From: Candidatus Latescibacterota bacterium
GTDB lineage: Bacteria; JAAXHH01; JABIQT01
Reading direction: 5' to 3'
NCBI GenBank assembly: GCA_018667995.1
Contig: JABIQT010001066.1
Location: forward strand, 1-10,320
Length of the DNA: 10,320 nucleotides
Shown here: positions 3,215-10,320 of the stretch, piece after piece
Position numbering within the stretch: position 1 is the first letter of the stretch
Layout of the letters: each line of letters opens with the position of its first letter
Position numbers and translations under genes: made by a program
Notes under the pieces: model-generated
Seen by the model: only the letters and a program-made list of their open reading frames with translations
Database searches by the model: none
What the model was told of the DNA's origin: nothing

Positions 3215-4843
3215 ATGGGTTATCAGAATCTATACGATGTAAAGCCTAACAAGGATGGCGCGGATAGCAGCCCGCAACCTAAAGAGGCGACGCCGGCCAT
3301 TCTTTATCTGTCTCTGGATGGTCGTTCCTGCGCTGCCGTTCGTGAGCAGCTCAAGGGCATCCCTTTAATAGAGAGCCAATCAGCATACCATGTCCAACAG
3401 GAGCTGATTTCCAAGCAGTATTCGGTTTTCGTAATACGCTGCAATGCTGTGACCGAGCTCGAATTCGAGATGCTTCAGTACATTAAGGAGCACGATCTCA
3501 TCACTCGTGTCATCGTAAGCGCAGAATCTGGCGCTATCGATCTTGCTGTTCGATTGATGAAGGCGGGTGCCGTAGACTTTATAATGAGCGAGACCCCCGA
3601 CGCACGACTTGCCACCTCTATTCTGAATCAGAGCAAGAAGACCGCCCTAACTACGGTGCCGAGAAAGAGGTCGGTTGTCAGAGAGCGCGCCGCCAAACCT
3701 GCCTCCAAAGAACAATATCCGTTAATTGGCCACAGTCAGGCGATTCGCGATCTTAGGGCCGCGATTCAGCTTGTTGCCAAGTCCCGTGCGCCGGTGTTAA
3801 TCATGGGCGAAAGTGGGACGGGCAAGGAAGTCGTGGCCCGCCAGATACACCAGTTCAGTGAACGAACAGATAAACAATGCATTGCTCTGAACTGCGCCGC
3901 ATTACCCAGTAGCGTCATTGAAAACGAGTTGTTTGGTCACGAAAAAGGGGCCTTCAGTGGTGCGCTTGCGAAGAAGGCCGGATGTTTCGAACTAGCTGAT
4001 GGCGGCACCCTCCTGCTGGATGAAATCACTGAGATGGACATCGACAACCAGGCCAAACTGCTACGCGTACTGGAACACAAGGCATTTCGGCGTCTTGGCG
4101 GTAAGGATGAGGTCACGGTCGATGTGAAGACGATTGCGGCTACTAACAAAGACATCCACGAGTCCATTGAGAATAAGCAGTTCAGACACGACCTGTACTA
4201 TAGACTGGGTGTTATCGAAATCGAGATACCACCTCTGCGGGAACGCAGGGAAGATATCATGCCGCTTATGCAGTTTTTTCTGCATGATATCTGCGAGGAA
4301 TATAAAAAGGCGCCCATGCATTTCTCCGATGAGGCTCTGGAGATTCTGATGGCCTACGAATGGCCGGGAAATGTGCGTGAACTGCGTAATCTGATTGAGA
4401 GATCTGTAGTTATGTGCAGCGGTGAAGAGATTGGCATGGAGCAGATTCCTGCACGTATCAGAAAGCGCATTCAAGATGCCGTTTTCGATTCTGGTGTCGT
4501 ACACATTTCTCCAGAAGATCAACCCACAAATATCATTCCAGTCGCCGGCAACTACAGCGCCCCTGCCCAGCCTCAAGCCGCACCGACCTCATCAGAGGGA
4601 CAGTCCCCCAATCCCCCTGGGAGTATCAGCATTCCGATTGGTAGTTCTTCGCAGGATGCAGAGAAGATATTGATCCTCCAGACATTGATATCCGCGGGAT
4701 ACAATAAATCTAAAACATCCCGTATTCTGGGGGTGAGCCGCAAGACGCTACACAATAAGATTAACGCCCTATTCCCAGAAGGAATCGAAACGGCCTCGGC
4801 GCAGTTTCTCGCCAACAGTGGTTCCTCGCAGCAGGCAGGATGA
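3215..4843 (+). CDS. Sigma-54-dependent transcriptional activator with degenerate receiver domain
   Basis: This is a 542-residue NtrC-type enhancer-binding protein. Residues about 28-125 have receiver-like sequence, but the phospho-acceptor Asp (beta-3, here V-F-V-I-R-C) and the late Lys (here D-F-I-M-S-E) are missing. The AAA+ domain begins at about residue 172. It has Walker A G-E-S-G-T-G-K-E (198-205), the sigma-54-contact loop G-A-F-S-G-A (245-250; usually GAFTGA), Walker B L-L-L-D-E (266-270), sensor I A-T-N (309-311) and P-P-L-R-E-R. A Pro/Ser/Gln-rich linker (about 430-480) leads to a Fis-type helix-turn-helix (about 485-520, with A-G-Y-N-K-S-K-T-S-R-I-L-G-V-S-R). The ATG at 3215 follows an AGGAAGAGAG ribosome site. 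The last four bases are shared with the sulfatase start, so the two are co-translated. The general domain plan resembles PrsR/AtoC-like regulators of envelope polysaccharide. Its targets are not evident here. Confidence 0.92.
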   Translation: MGYQNLYDVKPNKDGADSSPQPKEATPAILYLSLDGRSCAAVREQLKGIPLIESQSAYHVQQELISKQYSVFVIRCNAVTELEFEMLQYIKEHDLITRVIVSAESGAIDLAVRLMKAGAVDFIMSETPDARLATSILNQSKKTALTTVPRKRSVVRERAAKPASKEQYPLIGHSQAIRDLRAAIQLVAKSRAPVLIMGESGTGKEVVARQIHQFSERTDKQCIALNCAALPSSVIENELFGHEKGAFSGALAKKAGCFELADGGTLLLDEITEMDIDNQAKLLRVLEHKAFRRLGGKDEVTVDVKTIAATNKDIHESIENKQFRHDLYYRLGVIEIEIPPLRERREDIMPLMQFFLHDICEEYKKAPMHFSDEALEILMAYEWPGNVRELRNLIERSVVMCSGEEIGMEQIPARIRKRIQDAVFDSGVVHISPEDQPTNIIPVAGNYSAPAQPQAAPTSSEGQSPNPPGSISIPIGSSSQDAEKILILQTLISAGYNKSKTSRILGVSRKTLHNKINALFPEGIETASAQFLANSGSSQQAG

Positions 4844-6294
4844 AGCAGACCCCTAATATCCTGTTTCTCATGGCCGACCAGATGCAGGGCGGTGTCTTCG
4901 ACCAAGGCCACCCGTGTCTAACGCCCAATATCGATCAGCTGGCCTCCCGGGGTGTGCGATGCCGTCGGGCCTATACGCCAAACCCCGTTTGTTCTCCCGC
5001 ACGCGCTAGCCTCATGACTGGCCTCCTTCCTCACAATCATGGTGTCCTCACCGTTACTCACACAGTTGATGACGATCAGAGCCGATTACGGACTGATCAC
5101 CCTCACTGGGCCCAGCGACTATCTGACTCGGGATACCGGACCGGATACTTCGGAAAGTGGCACGTGGAGGAGCATCAATCCCTTGCCGACTTTGGCTGGG
5201 AGCAGAGCGGTGAATTCGGCCATGGAGAATTGGTCAGTGACCTGTTTCAGAATAAGATCCACGAGATGCAGGCCGCTTCCAATGCGGAGGCGACTTATAC
5301 GCACTCCATGAGATTGGATGATAGTACCGGATATCCCGGAAGCATCTTCTACGGTGTCACGTCAATACCGCCTGAACAACGAAAAATGGGTGTGATCACC
5401 GATCTTGCCCTAGATTATCTAGATGATGCCCTGGCGGAGGACGAACCGTGGTGTTGCTTCGCCAGCGTGCCGGAACCCCATGATCCATTCGTGTCCGGGG
5501 AGGCCGCTTTCAATCTGTACGATGTGGACAGCATTGCGCTCAACGAAAATGTAACCGACGATCTCAGTGATCGGCCCGGAATCTACCGCAAGGCCGCGAG
5601 AGTATGGAAGCATATGACCGACCGACAGCGTCGCGAGGCCGCAGTTTGCTACTATGCCTCCATCACGGAAATTGACGCACAGTTTGGACGATTGATAGAC
5701 CGCGTGGCGGCGGCCGGGCAGCTGGACAACACGATTATCGTTGTGACCTCAGACCACGGCGAAGCACTAGGTGCCCACGGGCTGTATTGCAAGAATTTCT
5801 CAGCCTTTGAGGAGATCTATACGATCCCCATGATTGTGTCCGGACCAGGCATTGCACAAAATGTGGTAACCGATGCAAGAGTGGGCCTTCACGACCTCTG
5901 CCCCACGATTCTTGAGTTATCGGGTAGTCCACCGATCGATCATCCGGATTCGCGGTCATTCGCCCCCGTGCTGCGCAATCCCAAGTCCCACGAGGTCGAA
6001 TATACCACCGGATATGCGGAATACTTTGGTGGGCGGATGATATTAACACAACGTGTGGTCTGGGACGGTTCGTGGAAGTTCGTATTCAATGGTTTTGATT
6101 ATGATGAGTTATATAATCTGGACGACGATCCGGGTGAAATGGTAAATCTGGCTGAGAAACCTGAGGCACGTCAGATGCTCCGCCATATGACCCAACTTAT
6201 GTGGCATAAGGTGAAGTCGACTGGGGACCAGTCGCTTCTCAACTCCAAATACCCTCCGCTACGCGTTGCCCCATTTGGACCAGGAATTACCTAG
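4840..6294 (+). CDS. Type I (Cys-type) sulfatase, apparently cytoplasmic
   Basis: This 484-residue sulfatase of the alkaline-phosphatase superfamily hydrolyses sulfate esters. The N-terminus reads N-I-L-F-L-M-A-D-Q-M, giving metal ligands Asp13 and Gln14. The maturation motif C-S-P-A-R has Cys51, expected to be oxidised to formylglycine by a separate enzyme not in the window, and Arg55. Further active-site residues are G-K-W-H (Lys106, His108) and T-S-D-H-G-E (Asp305, His306). The C-terminus has the usual D-E-L-Y-N-L-D-D-D-P-G-E-M-V-N-L stretch. All key positions are kept, so activity is likely. There is no signal peptide; the strand begins at residue 5. The A-D-Q-M form resembles choline-sulfatase and arylsulfatase relatives, but the substrate cannot be told. 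It overlaps the regulator stop by 4 bp (ATGA), so it belongs to the same transcript. A carbohydrate sulfate is plausible given the flippase and rhamnosidase nearby. Confidence 0.92.
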   Translation: MKQTPNILFLMADQMQGGVFDQGHPCLTPNIDQLASRGVRCRRAYTPNPVCSPARASLMTGLLPHNHGVLTVTHTVDDDQSRLRTDHPHWAQRLSDSGYRTGYFGKWHVEEHQSLADFGWEQSGEFGHGELVSDLFQNKIHEMQAASNAEATYTHSMRLDDSTGYPGSIFYGVTSIPPEQRKMGVITDLALDYLDDALAEDEPWCCFASVPEPHDPFVSGEAAFNLYDVDSIALNENVTDDLSDRPGIYRKAARVWKHMTDRQRREAAVCYYASITEIDAQFGRLIDRVAAAGQLDNTIIVVTSDHGEALGAHGLYCKNFSAFEEIYTIPMIVSGPGIAQNVVTDARVGLHDLCPTILELSGSPPIDHPDSRSFAPVLRNPKSHEVEYTTGYAEYFGGRMILTQRVVWDGSWKFVFNGFDYDELYNLDDDPGEMVNLAEKPEARQMLRHMTQLMWHKVKSTGDQSLLNSKYPPLRVAPFGPGIT

Positions 6295-6365
6295 ATCACG
6301 ATCGGACGCAGAACATACCGCTCTGGGTTGGTACGTCTGTAGCTGGGACTTGTAGGTATGGATTG
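6295..6365. other. Convergent intergenic gap, no clear terminator
   Basis: These 71 bases separate the sulfatase and serine-hydrolase-like stops. A CATACC/GGTATG pair with a long loop is the only symmetry seen and no T-run follows it, so read-through in both directions cannot be excluded. Confidence 0.4.
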
Positions 6366-7859
6366 CTATTGCGGAAGGGAGTCTTCTGTCGATACGCGGT
6401 TGGCCCGATGGGTTTCGCCGTCCTTGAGGAACAGGAGATGTGTGATCTCGCCTGTCTCATTAGCCACGAACGTGACCTGAGCGTCCTCCTCCAGAATATA
6501 GAATTCTTGATCTGATCGGGGGATGAGTTCGTTACGGTCCAGACCTGGCGGGCGACCATATAGGCGGGATCCGTCCTTCACGATGGAGACGGATAGACCC
6601 GGTTCGAACTCGTAGAGTCCGGCATAGGCTTCCAGGGTGACTGGGCTGATGAAAGCACGTGGGGGTTTCGGGGGTGTGTTTAACGGGTATCCCGGTTTCA
6701 AGATATGGAATCCGATGTCGTCCACCGGGATTGAAGTGTTTGAAAGAACCACAACGCCCCTTCGGCGCTTCTTGTTGAAGCCGATAAAGGCGGAAAATCC
6801 TCGCGTCATTCCCCGTTTCCAGTGGATTATACGCTCTCCATCTGTCTGTACCAGCCATCCCAGCGAGATTTCCTCATTCTCCCGACCGGTAGGGTACAAG
6901 GGCCGATTTGCTGTCTCGAAGGCGGCCGCGATTGTTACAGAATCCGATTTGTCGTCCTCCGGCAACATGGGAAAGGCATAGATGAATCCCATGGCCGCGG
7001 AAACAAAGATGTTCAGGTCGTGTGCCGTTGATAGCATCCCTTTCGCGCCCGGAAGATCGGGAATTGGGGTAGCCTCCACGGGCCGTCTTAAGCGATCATG
7101 GCCCTCTGAAGTCTGGGCGCTCATTCCCGGAGTAGGAATCACGTGAGTGTTGGTCATTTTGAGCAATCCGAATAGCCGTTCATGAATCAGTTCGTCGAGC
7201 GGTTTCTCCGCCATCAGCGATAGCGCATGTCCCAATAGCGCCATACCCAGTTCAGAATACTCATACTCAGTACCTATTTCACGGTTCAGTGTGCTGCTAG
7301 ACAGAAAACGGTACAATTGTTCTGCGTCCAAGGCAGCCTGGGGATTGAGGGAGTCGGCCATCGCGAGGCTGTCCGGAAAATCGGGGAGACCAGAGGTATG
7401 TGTGGCCAGATTTCCTAGCGTGATCTCCTCGCCGTTCCATGTGGGCATGCGGACATGGGTCGGTAGAAACCTAGACACGGGATCGCTGAGACTCACATCC
7501 GCTGCTTCGACCATTTGGGCCAGCAGGGAGCCGGTCATGACACCCGAGATGGCACCTACCTCGAAGACAGTGGCATTGCTCACCTTTCGGATATCTTTGC
7601 TGTTTAACGTGCCATAGGCGTGGGTTTCCCTGCCATACCCCCGAATGATGCCCACCACCATTCCCATGCTCTGGCGATGAGCATCTACTCGCTCACGGAT
7701 GATAGTCATCACAGGATCCTCTACGGGGTCCTCTTCCTGATTCTCCTGAGCCTTGAGGGGAGTGGTTCCGAGACATAGGATGGCCAGCGCACCTGTGAGA
7801 AATCGGCTTCCCATGCCCCTTCGAGGCCTGGTCATCCATTTTGTTCTACTATGGCTCAT
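6366..7859 (-). CDS. Secreted beta-lactamase-fold (class C / S12-like) protein, probable pseudo-enzyme
   Basis: The protein has 497 residues from the ATG at 7859. A TTG at 7868 and ATGs at 7835 and 7814 are alternatives, and none has a strong ribosome site. A signal peptide is likely: basic residues, then a hydrophobic stretch ending L-K-A before Q-E-N-Q, with cleavage near residue 37. The serine beta-lactamase/penicillin-binding domain spans about 50-380, followed by a beta-rich C-terminal domain (about 400-490) of the kind attached to Pab87-like S12 proteins. The usual active-site line F-E-I-G-S-x-x-K reads F-E-V-G-A-I-S-G, so nucleophile Ser and general-base Lys are Ala103 and Gly106. The second motif Y-x-N is Y-S-E (201-203); the third survives as K-R-G (348-350). 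The frame is intact, and family landmarks such as T-H-T-S-G-L-P-D-F and the L-L-K-M-T-N-T stretch are kept. It therefore looks like a maintained protein without hydrolase chemistry, perhaps a binding or regulatory protein (inference). Confidence 0.85.
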   Translation of the reverse strand: MSHSRTKWMTRPRRGMGSRFLTGALAILCLGTTPLKAQENQEEDPVEDPVMTIIRERVDAHRQSMGMVVGIIRGYGRETHAYGTLNSKDIRKVSNATVFEVGAISGVMTGSLLAQMVEAADVSLSDPVSRFLPTHVRMPTWNGEEITLGNLATHTSGLPDFPDSLAMADSLNPQAALDAEQLYRFLSSSTLNREIGTEYEYSELGMALLGHALSLMAEKPLDELIHERLFGLLKMTNTHVIPTPGMSAQTSEGHDRLRRPVEATPIPDLPGAKGMLSTAHDLNIFVSAAMGFIYAFPMLPEDDKSDSVTIAAAFETANRPLYPTGRENEEISLGWLVQTDGERIIHWKRGMTRGFSAFIGFNKKRRRGVVVLSNTSIPVDDIGFHILKPGYPLNTPPKPPRAFISPVTLEAYAGLYEFEPGLSVSIVKDGSRLYGRPPGLDRNELIPRSDQEFYILEEDAQVTFVANETGEITHLLFLKDGETHRANRVSTEDSLPQ

Positions 7860-7925
7860 CTTAACCAAATGTCTATACCATGTGAAATATGGGGAACTTA
7901 GCGCTGTTACACCAAAACACGCACT

Positions 7926-7953
7926 AATATACGGTATCGCATATGCCTGTAAA
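7926..7953 (-). promoter_or_regulatory. Sigma-70-type promoter for the serine-hydrolase-like gene
   Basis: Read on the minus strand, TTTACA (7953-7948; 5 of 6 to consensus) and TATATT (7931-7926; 5 of 6) are separated by 16 bases. Transcription would begin near 7919, leaving a leader of about 60 bases to the ATG at 7859. It implies that the gene need not depend on read-through from the unknown gene at 7989-8774. Confidence 0.5.
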
Positions 7954-7967
7954 GTATGAATTACAGG
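7946..7967. repeat. CCTGTAA-N8-TTACAGG inverted repeat, candidate operator
   Basis: There is a perfect 7-bp inverted repeat (7946-7952 and 7961-7967) with an 8-base spacer. One arm lies over the -35 box at 7948-7953. Size and symmetry fit a dimeric repressor or activator site. It also lies 22 bases downstream of the stop of the 7989-8774 gene, so a transcript hairpin is an alternative, but there is no T-run after it on the minus strand. Confidence 0.45.
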
Positions 7968-7988
7968 GCTATATGGAGCAACTGAGCC

Positions 7989-8774
7989 TCATGGCAATTC
8001 GATGATGGCGTTGCAGGCTTCGAGGCGAATCGATCTCGAATAGTGGTGTACCTCTATTTCGTCCGATATGGATGTGGGTACGCGAACGATGAATTCCGCC
8101 CAGTGAGGAGTATTAAACGCGACAAAGGCGACGTCAAACCCCCCAATGAGGTCATCGGGATCCACATTCATATCAGGGAAAAGTACGGGCCCCGTATCCG
8201 GTTGATATATGTAGTCGCGCTCGTTGGCGTTTATGGTCTTCACCGGGTATTCTATAACAGCCGTGTATCGATCTGATTCGATCTCCGTTCTCGCATTTAT
8301 CAATCGATTACCCAGCACCGCTTCGACAATCTCCTCGGCCGATGTCATGATGCGTCCAGTTACCTCCGTCAGGTCGACATTCAGGCTATCGAACGTCTCC
8401 TCTGCCTTAATGATTTGTCGTTCGGGTTGATTTCCCAGCGACGGTGGATAGAGCATGACGCCTTTATTCGCAACATCAAAGGCTTTCAACGCCATAAACT
8501 GGTCACCCGAAACGGAACACACCGGCTTGAAATCTGCATTCGGATCGTGCCAGATACCTTCATCTACGCCCACTTGCTCCGTCTTACAACTTACTCCCAG
8601 AACGAAGGACATGAGCCGCCCTGTGGCCTTCTCGTTGATGATGCACCTGCTGTCCAAGGGAATGCGTGCATTATTCAGTGTGTAGGGGGGCTTTTGGGCA
8701 ACGGTTTGCGGTTTCTTCTTGAGCGTGTCGATACGGAAAGTGAGGAAGGATCTTTGATAGTCGATCGTGTCCAT
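7989..8774 (-). CDS. Uncharacterised 261-residue protein
   Basis: I do not recognise the family. The frame is good: ATG at 8774 is preceded by GGGAG with a 5-base gap, and the stop is TGA at 7991-7989. The protein has no signal peptide and no membrane segment. It is mildly acidic, with basic residues concentrated in the first 30. Alternating hydrophobic stretches (about 168-180, 213-221, 226-233, 247-260) suggest a largely beta structure in the C-terminal half, and residues 121-160 look helical. Four cysteines (44, 63, 86, 254) are spread out without a metal-site pattern. The C-terminal part is rich in His/Trp/Tyr (N-T-P-H-W-A-E-F, E-V-H-H-Y-S-R). It diverges from the rhamnosidase gene and lies 129 bp upstream of the serine-hydrolase-like gene on the same strand, so a link to carbohydrate use is possible but unproven. 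Confidence 0.8.
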   Translation of the reverse strand: MDTIDYQRSFLTFRIDTLKKKPQTVAQKPPYTLNNARIPLDSRCIINEKATGRLMSFVLGVSCKTEQVGVDEGIWHDPNADFKPVCSVSGDQFMALKAFDVANKGVMLYPPSLGNQPERQIIKAEETFDSLNVDLTEVTGRIMTSAEEIVEAVLGNRLINARTEIESDRYTAVIEYPVKTINANERDYIYQPDTGPVLFPDMNVDPDDLIGGFDVAFVAFNTPHWAEFIVRVPTSISDEIEVHHYSRSIRLEACNAIIELP

Positions 8775-8814
8775 GACGGCTCCCGGACGTTACGAAATAA
8801 ACATAGCGGCAAAG

Positions 8815-8844
8815 TTGACCCAGCTTAATTTATAGGCGCATAAT
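8815..8844 (+). promoter_or_regulatory. Sigma-70-type promoter for the rhamnosidase gene
   Basis: TTGACC (8815-8820; 5 of 6) and CATAAT (8839-8844; 5 of 6) have an 18-base spacer, placing the start of transcription near 8851 and a leader of about 45 bases. On the opposite strand TATAAA (8834-8829) could serve as a -10 box for the unknown gene, but its -35 box is poor. If both are real, the divergent promoters overlap face to face. Confidence 0.5.
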
Positions 8845-8895
8845 ACATGATGCAAGGCGGTTTACCGGCACATAATCAGCTATGATCGGAATAGT

Positions 8896-10320
8896 ATGCT
8901 AACACATCCAATGTTCGAGGACAATCGCCCATATACCCGCTGGTGGTGGTTCTGCGATGAAATAAAACAGCCTGACATAACGCGACAGTTGCAGTGGGTC
9001 GCGGACCATCACTTCGGTGGTGTGGAGATAGCCTGGATGTATCCGCAGCCGGGAGCACGGGTAGGCGCGAAATGGTTGAGTCCTGAATGGACCACTCTAG
9101 TGGCTTTCGCTAAGTCAGAGGCAGACCGTCTTGGACTTGGATGTGATTTCACCTTCAGTACGGCCTGGCCTTTCGGTGGTTCCATCGTGCCCGCGGCCGA
9201 TGCGTGTCAAGTCTTCGACGGTCTATCAACACAACGAATGGAGAAGCCCTGGGAGCTGGGGCAATTCGGCCGTGGCTATGTATTGAATCATCTGGATAGG
9301 GAGGCTGTACTTCGCTATGGCAAAATAATGGGAGACGCATTGAGGCCCGCCATGGAAGGCTCTGTCTCTGGACTGTTCAGTGACTCCTGGGAGGTGTTTC
9401 CCGAGGGGCTGTGGTCTGTGGGATTGGATCGTGTCTTCAGCGACCGGTTCGGCTATGAGCTCGAGCCCTTCAAGCGGGACCTCGACGAGCACCCCCATAT
9501 ACGCTATGACTATCGCGTCCTGGTTTCTGAAGCCGCGTTGAACGGTTTCTTTCGCCCCTATATTGAGATATGCCGAAATCTCGGCGGCGTGAGTCGCGTT
9601 CAGTGTCACGGCGCACCAACGGATCTGGTGACCGCATTTTCCGAAGTGGACATTCCTGAATCCGAAGCACTGTTATTTGAACCGTTCTTCTCAGCCATAC
9701 CAGCTTCCGGTGCGGCCATAGGAGGCAAACCAGTTGTCAGCTGCGAGACGTTCACCTGTATCTATGGCTATGAGCCCTGGCCTGACAACTCTCCTCATCA
9801 TGGACGGGAGCGTGTCGCGGACCTGAAGCTCTTGGCAGACTCCGTCTTTGCCAATGGTGTCAATCATATCGTGTGGCATGGAATGCCATACAATTCGGAC
9901 GATAGCGGAAATACCTTCTATGCCACTACCCATCTGGGTCCCGATTGTGCCTTTGTGGATGAGCTACCCGCGTTCAATGATTATATGACAACCGTTAGCG
10001 GTTATCTGAAAGCCGGGCAAACCTACACAGACATTGCGATGTATCTCCCACTGGAAGATGTGCGTATGCTGCACCTCCTTCCCGACGAACAACAGACACC
10101 TGCCGGCACCTACTATTGGGAATTACAGGATACGGCGAGACCTCATAATCTATTGGGGTACCACCCACTCTGGGTGTCCGCAGAGATCCTTCAAGAGGCT
10201 TCCGTAGAAGGAGAGAGCATCAGGTGTGGCGCTGCCACATTCAGAATGCTGGTCGTGGATGTGGAATGGCTGGATAGGGAGGCGCTTTCGACGTTGAATC
10301 GGTTGGCCAATTTGGGCGCA
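8896..10320 (+). CDS. GH106-family alpha-L-rhamnosidase, 3' end outside window
   Basis: An open frame of 475 codons runs off the right edge without a stop. The start is set at ATG 8896, which has GGA 5 bases ahead; ATG 8911 is the alternative, and an in-frame TGA at 8848 bars anything further up. The sequence follows the GH106 pattern: R-P-Y-T-R-W-W-W (11-18), an F-G-G-V-E-I strand, K-W-L-S-P-E-W, S-D-S-W-E (162-166) and V-V-S-C-E-T-F-T (Glu284), then a V-W-H-G-M-P-Y-N stretch. Glu166 and Glu284 lie in the conserved acidic segments where family catalytic and calcium-linked glutamates are expected (from family knowledge, not aligned). The enzyme removes terminal alpha-L-rhamnose from glycans. 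Family members are usually 800-1100 residues, so about half is seen. No signal peptide precedes the barrel, suggesting a cytoplasmic enzyme. Confidence 0.82.
   Translation, partial: MLTHPMFEDNRPYTRWWWFCDEIKQPDITRQLQWVADHHFGGVEIAWMYPQPGARVGAKWLSPEWTTLVAFAKSEADRLGLGCDFTFSTAWPFGGSIVPAADACQVFDGLSTQRMEKPWELGQFGRGYVLNHLDREAVLRYGKIMGDALRPAMEGSVSGLFSDSWEVFPEGLWSVGLDRVFSDRFGYELEPFKRDLDEHPHIRYDYRVLVSEAALNGFFRPYIEICRNLGGVSRVQCHGAPTDLVTAFSEVDIPESEALLFEPFFSAIPASGAAIGGKPVVSCETFTCIYGYEPWPDNSPHHGRERVADLKLLADSVFANGVNHIVWHGMPYNSDDSGNTFYATTHLGPDCAFVDELPAFNDYMTTVSGYLKAGQTYTDIAMYLPLEDVRMLHLLPDEQQTPAGTYYWELQDTARPHNLLGYHPLWVSAEILQEASVEGESIRCGAATFRMLVVDVEWLDREALSTLNRLANLGA

Follow-up and report, generated by a model that had tools for sequence, protein, structure and literature searches.

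Proteins with the penicillin-binding fold are almost always treated as enzymes upon a match to PF00144, and the acyl-enzyme chemistry of family S12 is impossible without the serine and the lysine of the SxxK motif. Class C beta-lactamases and D-Ala carboxypeptidases of the AmpC/AmpH type have their fold in common with residues 50-394 of the protein described here, which is encoded in a window (the whole stretch of DNA analysed) of 10,320 nucleotides from a Latescibacterota genome. In contrast to these enzymes, to which it is about 24% identical, the window protein contains neither the catalytic Ser nor the catalytic Lys, and its NCBIfam scores (119.2 and 117.4 bits) are far under the AmpH and class C cut-offs (266, 415). 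Pab87, a CubicO protease (2qmi), carries like the window protein a beta domain C-terminal to its S12 domain. In Pab87 this beta domain is a lipocalin domain, which holds the octamer together (PMC2651629). Pab87 is an active compartmentalised peptidase with SxxK, YxN and HxG (PMC2651629), whereas SxxK and YxN are missing in the window protein. LACTB, a metazoan mitochondrial PBP-beta-lactamase homologue, resembles the window protein in its superfamily and its non-classical role, but an intact SXXK is its defining feature (PMC2266909).

The same two domains and the D-D-I-G-F-H segment, at 29-39% full-length identity, are found in DUF3471-bearing S12 hydrolases (DDIGFH subfamily, L083-L156) of Gemmatimonadota, Acidobacteriota, Bacteroidota, Planctomycetota and others. 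These relatives outside the Latescibacterota carry G-S-x-[ST]-K, Y-S-N and W-H-x-G (nearly all in the form W-H-N-G-G-T-G-G), followed by D-D-I-G-F-H. The window clade, in contrast, is without the Ser, Lys, Asn and His of these motifs and shows an additional stretch of conservation (Y297, P303, E304, D309). Pseudoenzymes are known in many families (PMC5106787, PMC10211241). A literature search over titles and abstracts, which covered few subscription journals, returned no paper on a dead S12 or PBP-type pseudoenzyme.

The gene, its catalytic motifs and the predicted fold

The features of the window are listed in Table 1. From a TTG start, the frame of the pseudo-S12 gene is open over 500 amino acids and thus undamaged, as the first-pass annotation had described it. 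The true start is likely an in-frame ATG, either M4 (7859) or M19 (7814), which would make the protein shorter. PF00144 matches residues 59-381 (E 8.8e-50, 170 bits versus a cut-off of 27) and DUF3471 residues 409-479 (E 6.8e-8).

Table 1. Features of the window (strand and coordinates in window numbering)
Feature	Coordinates	Strand	Remarks
Pseudo-serine-hydrolase (pseudo-S12) gene	6366..7868	-	S12/class C beta-lactamase domain and C-terminal DUF3471
Putative signal peptide	7749..7814	-	residues 19-40, MGSRFLTGALAILCLGTTPLKA; hydrophobic stretch judged by eye
SxxK position	7542..7553	-	reads A-I-S-G (A106, G109); Ser and Lys in 35/35 active relatives
Second motif	7251..7259	-	Y204-S205-E206; Y204 retained, Asn replaced by E206; Asn in 35/35 active relatives
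Third motif	6810..6818	-	K351-R352-G353; His in 35/35 active relatives, Leu in 12/13 orthologues
D-D-I-G-F-H	6705..6722	-	residues 383-388; 384-388 invariant across 48 sequences, active and dead
C-terminal DUF3471 domain	6432..6644	-	beta-rich; same place as the lipocalin domain of Pab87
Partner gene	7989..8774	-	261-aa protein; directly upstream of pseudo-S12, same strand, 120-bp gap
GH106 (alpha-L-rhamnosidase family)-like gene	8896..10320	+	PF17132, 1.5e-18; runs off the contig end
PF00884 sulfatase gene	4840..6294	+	convergent with pseudo-S12; shared only by G001 (L077), 70% identity

A scan of genome contigs with the window protein alone gave no relative, and an alignment of orthologues was required as query. 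With this, 80 loci were fetched by means of the peptides [ED]DIGFH[LI]L and S[GA]MTVFEI, a scan that passes over members carrying neither peptide. Motifs were read only from recovered frames spanning the site, and a few loci with wrong or short frames were left out. The resulting alignment (A3) contains 48 sequences, namely 35 active relatives and 13 of the window clade.

In the translation, the nucleophile region reads T-V-F-E-V-G, then A-I-S-G, then V-M-T-G-S-L-L-A-Q-M-V. In all 35 active relatives as well as in the class C enzymes of the PDB, the nucleophile Ser stands in the column of A106 (codon 7553-7551) and the general-base Lys in that of G109 (codon 7544-7542), which bears out the reading of AxxG in place of SxxK made from the window alone; the second motif was likewise read correctly as Y-S-E (7259-7251). 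The third motif was said to remain as K-R-G. These letters are present and compatible with the class C KTG form of [HK]xG, but calling them retained is misleading, because position 351 is His in the active relatives and Leu in all but one of the orthologues, so that Lys351 is private to the window protein. In the window protein, Ser-x-x-Lys is limited to residues 7 and 428, both outside the S12 domain, and no replacement Ser-x-x-Lys common to the orthologues was found within this domain in the alignment. An alternative active-site Ser-x-x-Lys, which would speak for a displaced nucleophile, is thus not there. Judged from these alignments, S12 (SxxK) chemistry has almost certainly been lost in the window protein.

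Ser106, Lys109, Phe111, Asn206, Gly276 and His351 are invariant in the 35 active relatives and missing in all 13 members of the window clade in A3; the catalytic set corresponds to A106, G109, E206 and K351 in window numbering. Kept in the window clade are G105, E103, Y204, S205, W350, G353, T355, G357 and D384-H388, so that the loss falls mainly on the catalytic positions. The pocket was assessed from the alignment: Y204 and D384-H388 do not vary between dead and active members, which fits a pocket that is still partly used for binding.

The AlphaFold2 model of the window protein, calculated from A3, reached a pLDDT of 87 and a pTM of 0.79. The segment 50-394 of this model could be superposed on class C beta-lactamases and D-Ala carboxypeptidases (Z 39; rmsd 2.2 over 316 residues). 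According to the model, the S12/class C beta-lactamase fold is intact, in agreement with the penicillin-binding fold proposed earlier. Over both domains, the best Foldseek matches were esterase IS11 and Pab87, where 2qmi aligned loosely over residues 48-491 (rmsd 10.8).

The protein is probably exported, as suggested by its sequence. The first-pass annotation had assigned a signal peptide, and a hydrophobic segment does lie at residues 19-40; it was recognised by eye and is weak evidence, and the N-termini of the orthologues are hydrophobic too. A promoter had been called visible. The best sigma-70-like site on the minus strand, TTTACA-16-TATATT (7953-7926), lies inside the 120-bp gap after the co-directional upstream gene and might represent it, although six such sites were observed in 6200-8950 versus 2.7 expected, which makes this a weak indication.

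Orthologues, origin of the loss and selection

Searches at the order, class and phylum level all gave the identical set of 16 genomes. Pseudo-S12 is present in 13 of these, including the source genome of the window (85% complete, 1165 contigs). By record title, several of the 13 are Candidatus Latescibacterota and others carry the older name 'Gemmatimonadetes'. Compared with the window protein, identity is 51% for the G001 orthologue and about 44-47% for those of genus g3 (eleven species).

A normal SxxK, which in orthologues would point to an error in the window, occurs in none of the 13 proteins. The site reads G-Q-L-S-S in the 11 g3 species, G-P-L-S-S in G001 and G-A-I-S-G in the window. 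Motif 2 is Y-S-D or Y-S-E throughout, i.e. the Asn is always replaced by an acidic residue, and motif 3 is L-[TSN]-G in 12 orthologues and K-R-G in the window. Every pseudo-S12 protein is therefore devoid of all four catalytic residues (Ser and Lys of SxxK, Asn of motif 2, His of motif 3). Within g3, Q106, S109 and D206 show no exception (11/11 species), and an acidic insertion of variable length is located ahead of motif 2. Other S12 proteins of the same genomes have SxxK wherever an S12 frame was recovered, e.g. FRIASQTK in most g3 genomes, and are far from the window protein (about 22-29% identity). No active protein of the DDIGFH subfamily turned up in these genomes. A 100-aa frame (L066, G002:C49:65395-65547) matches only the C-terminal end of pseudo-S12 (52% identity to the window) and lies on the same contig as a full pseudo-S12 gene, so that it is a free-standing copy or a remnant of the C-terminal domain.

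A tree was calculated after removal of the motif columns and included four representatives of the pseudo clade, which formed one side of a branch with an SH-aLRT of 100. The stem of the clade is long (0.78 changes per column), and its attachment point among the active relatives is not fixed by the tree. By tree and alignment, the catalytic residues were lost once, in the ancestor shared by a single Latescibacterota group. One S12 protein from a MAG titled 'Bordetella parapertussis' (L100, CALQCC020000008.1) was placed among Acidobacteriota, for which reason this label looks wrong.

Pairwise dN/dS of pseudo-S12 had a median of 0.31 and ranged from 0.19 to 0.43 (59 pairs, dS < 2). The median was 0.13 for the partner, values of 0.13-0.19 were obtained for the GH106-like gene and 0.05-0.44 for pairs of active relatives. 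As measured by these ratios, pseudo-S12 is under purifying selection, with looser constraint than its neighbours since its dN/dS is above those of the partner and the GH106-like gene. The loss common to the orthologues and a dN/dS well below 1 argue for a maintained protein and not a decaying gene, as had been claimed from the window. Orthologue-wide loss of catalytic residues together with purifying selection is the mark of a pseudoenzyme, and both were found here (13/13; dN/dS 0.19-0.43).

The three-gene cassette and its surroundings

An adjacent orthologue of the partner gene is located next to pseudo-S12 in all 13 genomes. Both genes lie close together in g3, and about 1.1 kb separates them in G001. 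In the latter (L077, the nearest relative) this space contains a 182-aa ORF of opposite orientation (8971-9519, minus strand), whose N-terminus resembles that of a lipoprotein. The partner protein has no match in Pfam, NCBIfam or PHROG, no evident signal peptide and no relative among PDB sequences (best E 0.87). Its model (pLDDT 82.7) matched no PDB fold with E <= 0.001 (best VIA, Z 2.7), which is no proof of a new fold. The family is characterised by the motifs CKTE, PNADF, EYPxKTxN and YQxDTGPVxxPD and has remote paralogues in the same genomes.

In 13/13 genomes, the pair is flanked by an orthologue of the GH106-like gene, which in the window is divergent from the pair; in G005 a single additional ORF intervenes. 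No evident signal peptide was seen in the GH106-like protein. Its orthologue in L077 matches PF17132 partially (278-634 of 743) and is partial also against 5mqm. With this orthologue as query, G000:C1015:1-390 matched the missing C-terminal part of the query with 42% identity.

Pseudo-S12, partner and GH106-like gene occur in an all-or-none manner (13/13 genomes versus 0/3). In the three genomes without pseudo-S12 (G013, G014, G015), neither cassette neighbour was found, only remote partner paralogues; absence is less certain in G013 and G015, which are only 90% and 83% complete. Further ORFs at L175, L172 and L170 resemble, by eye, phytanoyl-CoA-dioxygenase-like and luciferase-like genes.

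Possible roles of the pseudo-S12 protein

The catalytic machinery was lost, yet the gene and the same two neighbours were kept in 13 bacteria, so that the protein probably binds instead of cutting. The best explanation, with a probability of roughly 55%, is a lineage-specific, vertically kept pseudoenzyme that is exported and attaches non-covalently to a ligand or partner. A secreted or periplasmic ligand-binding protein, an inhibitor or a scaffold had been put forward as candidate roles in the first-pass annotation. The ancestor would have been a secreted S12 hydrolase of the widespread subfamily with GSxxK, EYSN, WHNGGTGG and DDIGFH. The common ancestor of one Latescibacterota group would then have lost Ser, Lys, motif-2 Asn and motif-3 His, while fold, motif-2 Tyr and DDIGFH segment were retained. 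The protein, which probably has lost all activity, would have an extracytoplasmic role and bind non-covalently, either in the former active-site cleft, through the C-terminal beta domain, or both. It may form the ligand- or partner-binding part of a co-conserved module with the 260-aa protein and the GH106-like glycosidase, plausibly serving glycan sensing, capture or handling; a connection to glycans is suggested by the GH106-like and sulfatase neighbours. A direct complex with the exported pseudo-S12 is unlikely unless topology was misjudged, since partner and GH106-like protein are without evident signal peptide.

Tentatively, the three genes could be seen as a hitherto undescribed extracytoplasmic module in which a dead S12/DUF3471 receptor, the 260-aa family and a GH106-like glycosidase serve to take up or sense one particular glycan. 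It would belong to Latescibacterota, among them members whose labels assign them to a sponge-associated group. We regard this more specific proposal as doubtful. Latescibacterota living with sponges have been described in a paper that makes no mention of GH106, lactamase or sulfatase (PMC12993501), and a literature search for Latescibacterota, sponge and sulfatase together returned no paper.

Some dead paralogues regulate active ones by oligomerising. Pseudo-S12 might likewise oligomerise, as subunit or inhibitor, with a hydrolase that it regulates, be it an active paralogue of family S12 or a different secreted enzyme, a rather unlikely alternative. Pab87, among the best Foldseek matches, is octameric through its C-terminal domain (PMC2651629), and S12 proteins with SxxK exist in the same genomes (FRIASQTK in most g3). 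These paralogues are distant, however, at about 22-29% identity; none was seen in the syntenic block, and the genomes yielded no active DDIGFH-subfamily member.

Less probable still is a new enzyme, in which catalysis has migrated to, or newly arisen at, S108, S109 (of the orthologues), Y204 or D/E206. Y204 and S108 are invariant in 13/13 proteins, residue 206 is always acidic (E/D), and migrated catalytic residues are reported for some putative pseudoenzymes (PMC10211241). S108, however, is not new, since Ser or Thr is found there in active relatives too, S109 is Gly in the window protein, and the variation at positions 106 (A/P/Q) and 109 (G/S) is unlike a conserved new catalytic set. A decaying gene or an assembly artefact, to which the long stem of 0.78 changes per column and a dN/dS above that of the neighbours might point, is very improbable, as open frames and conserved synteny were found in 13 independently assembled genomes, dN/dS is below 0.45 in all 59 pairs and the replacement motif is conserved within g3; sequencing error and gene decay were ruled out by the shared loss, the open frames and dN/dS.

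For a non-covalently binding pseudoenzyme, a clade in which the whole SxxK/YxN/HxG set is gone while fold and cassette are fixed would represent a clean natural conversion of a hydrolase to a presumed binding protein, accompanied by a partner family without description in Pfam, NCBIfam and PHROG. Annotation would name the pseudo-S12 gene a serine hydrolase or beta-lactamase. PF00144 matches in metagenomes should therefore be viewed with caution and not be tallied as beta-lactam resistance or peptidase genes.
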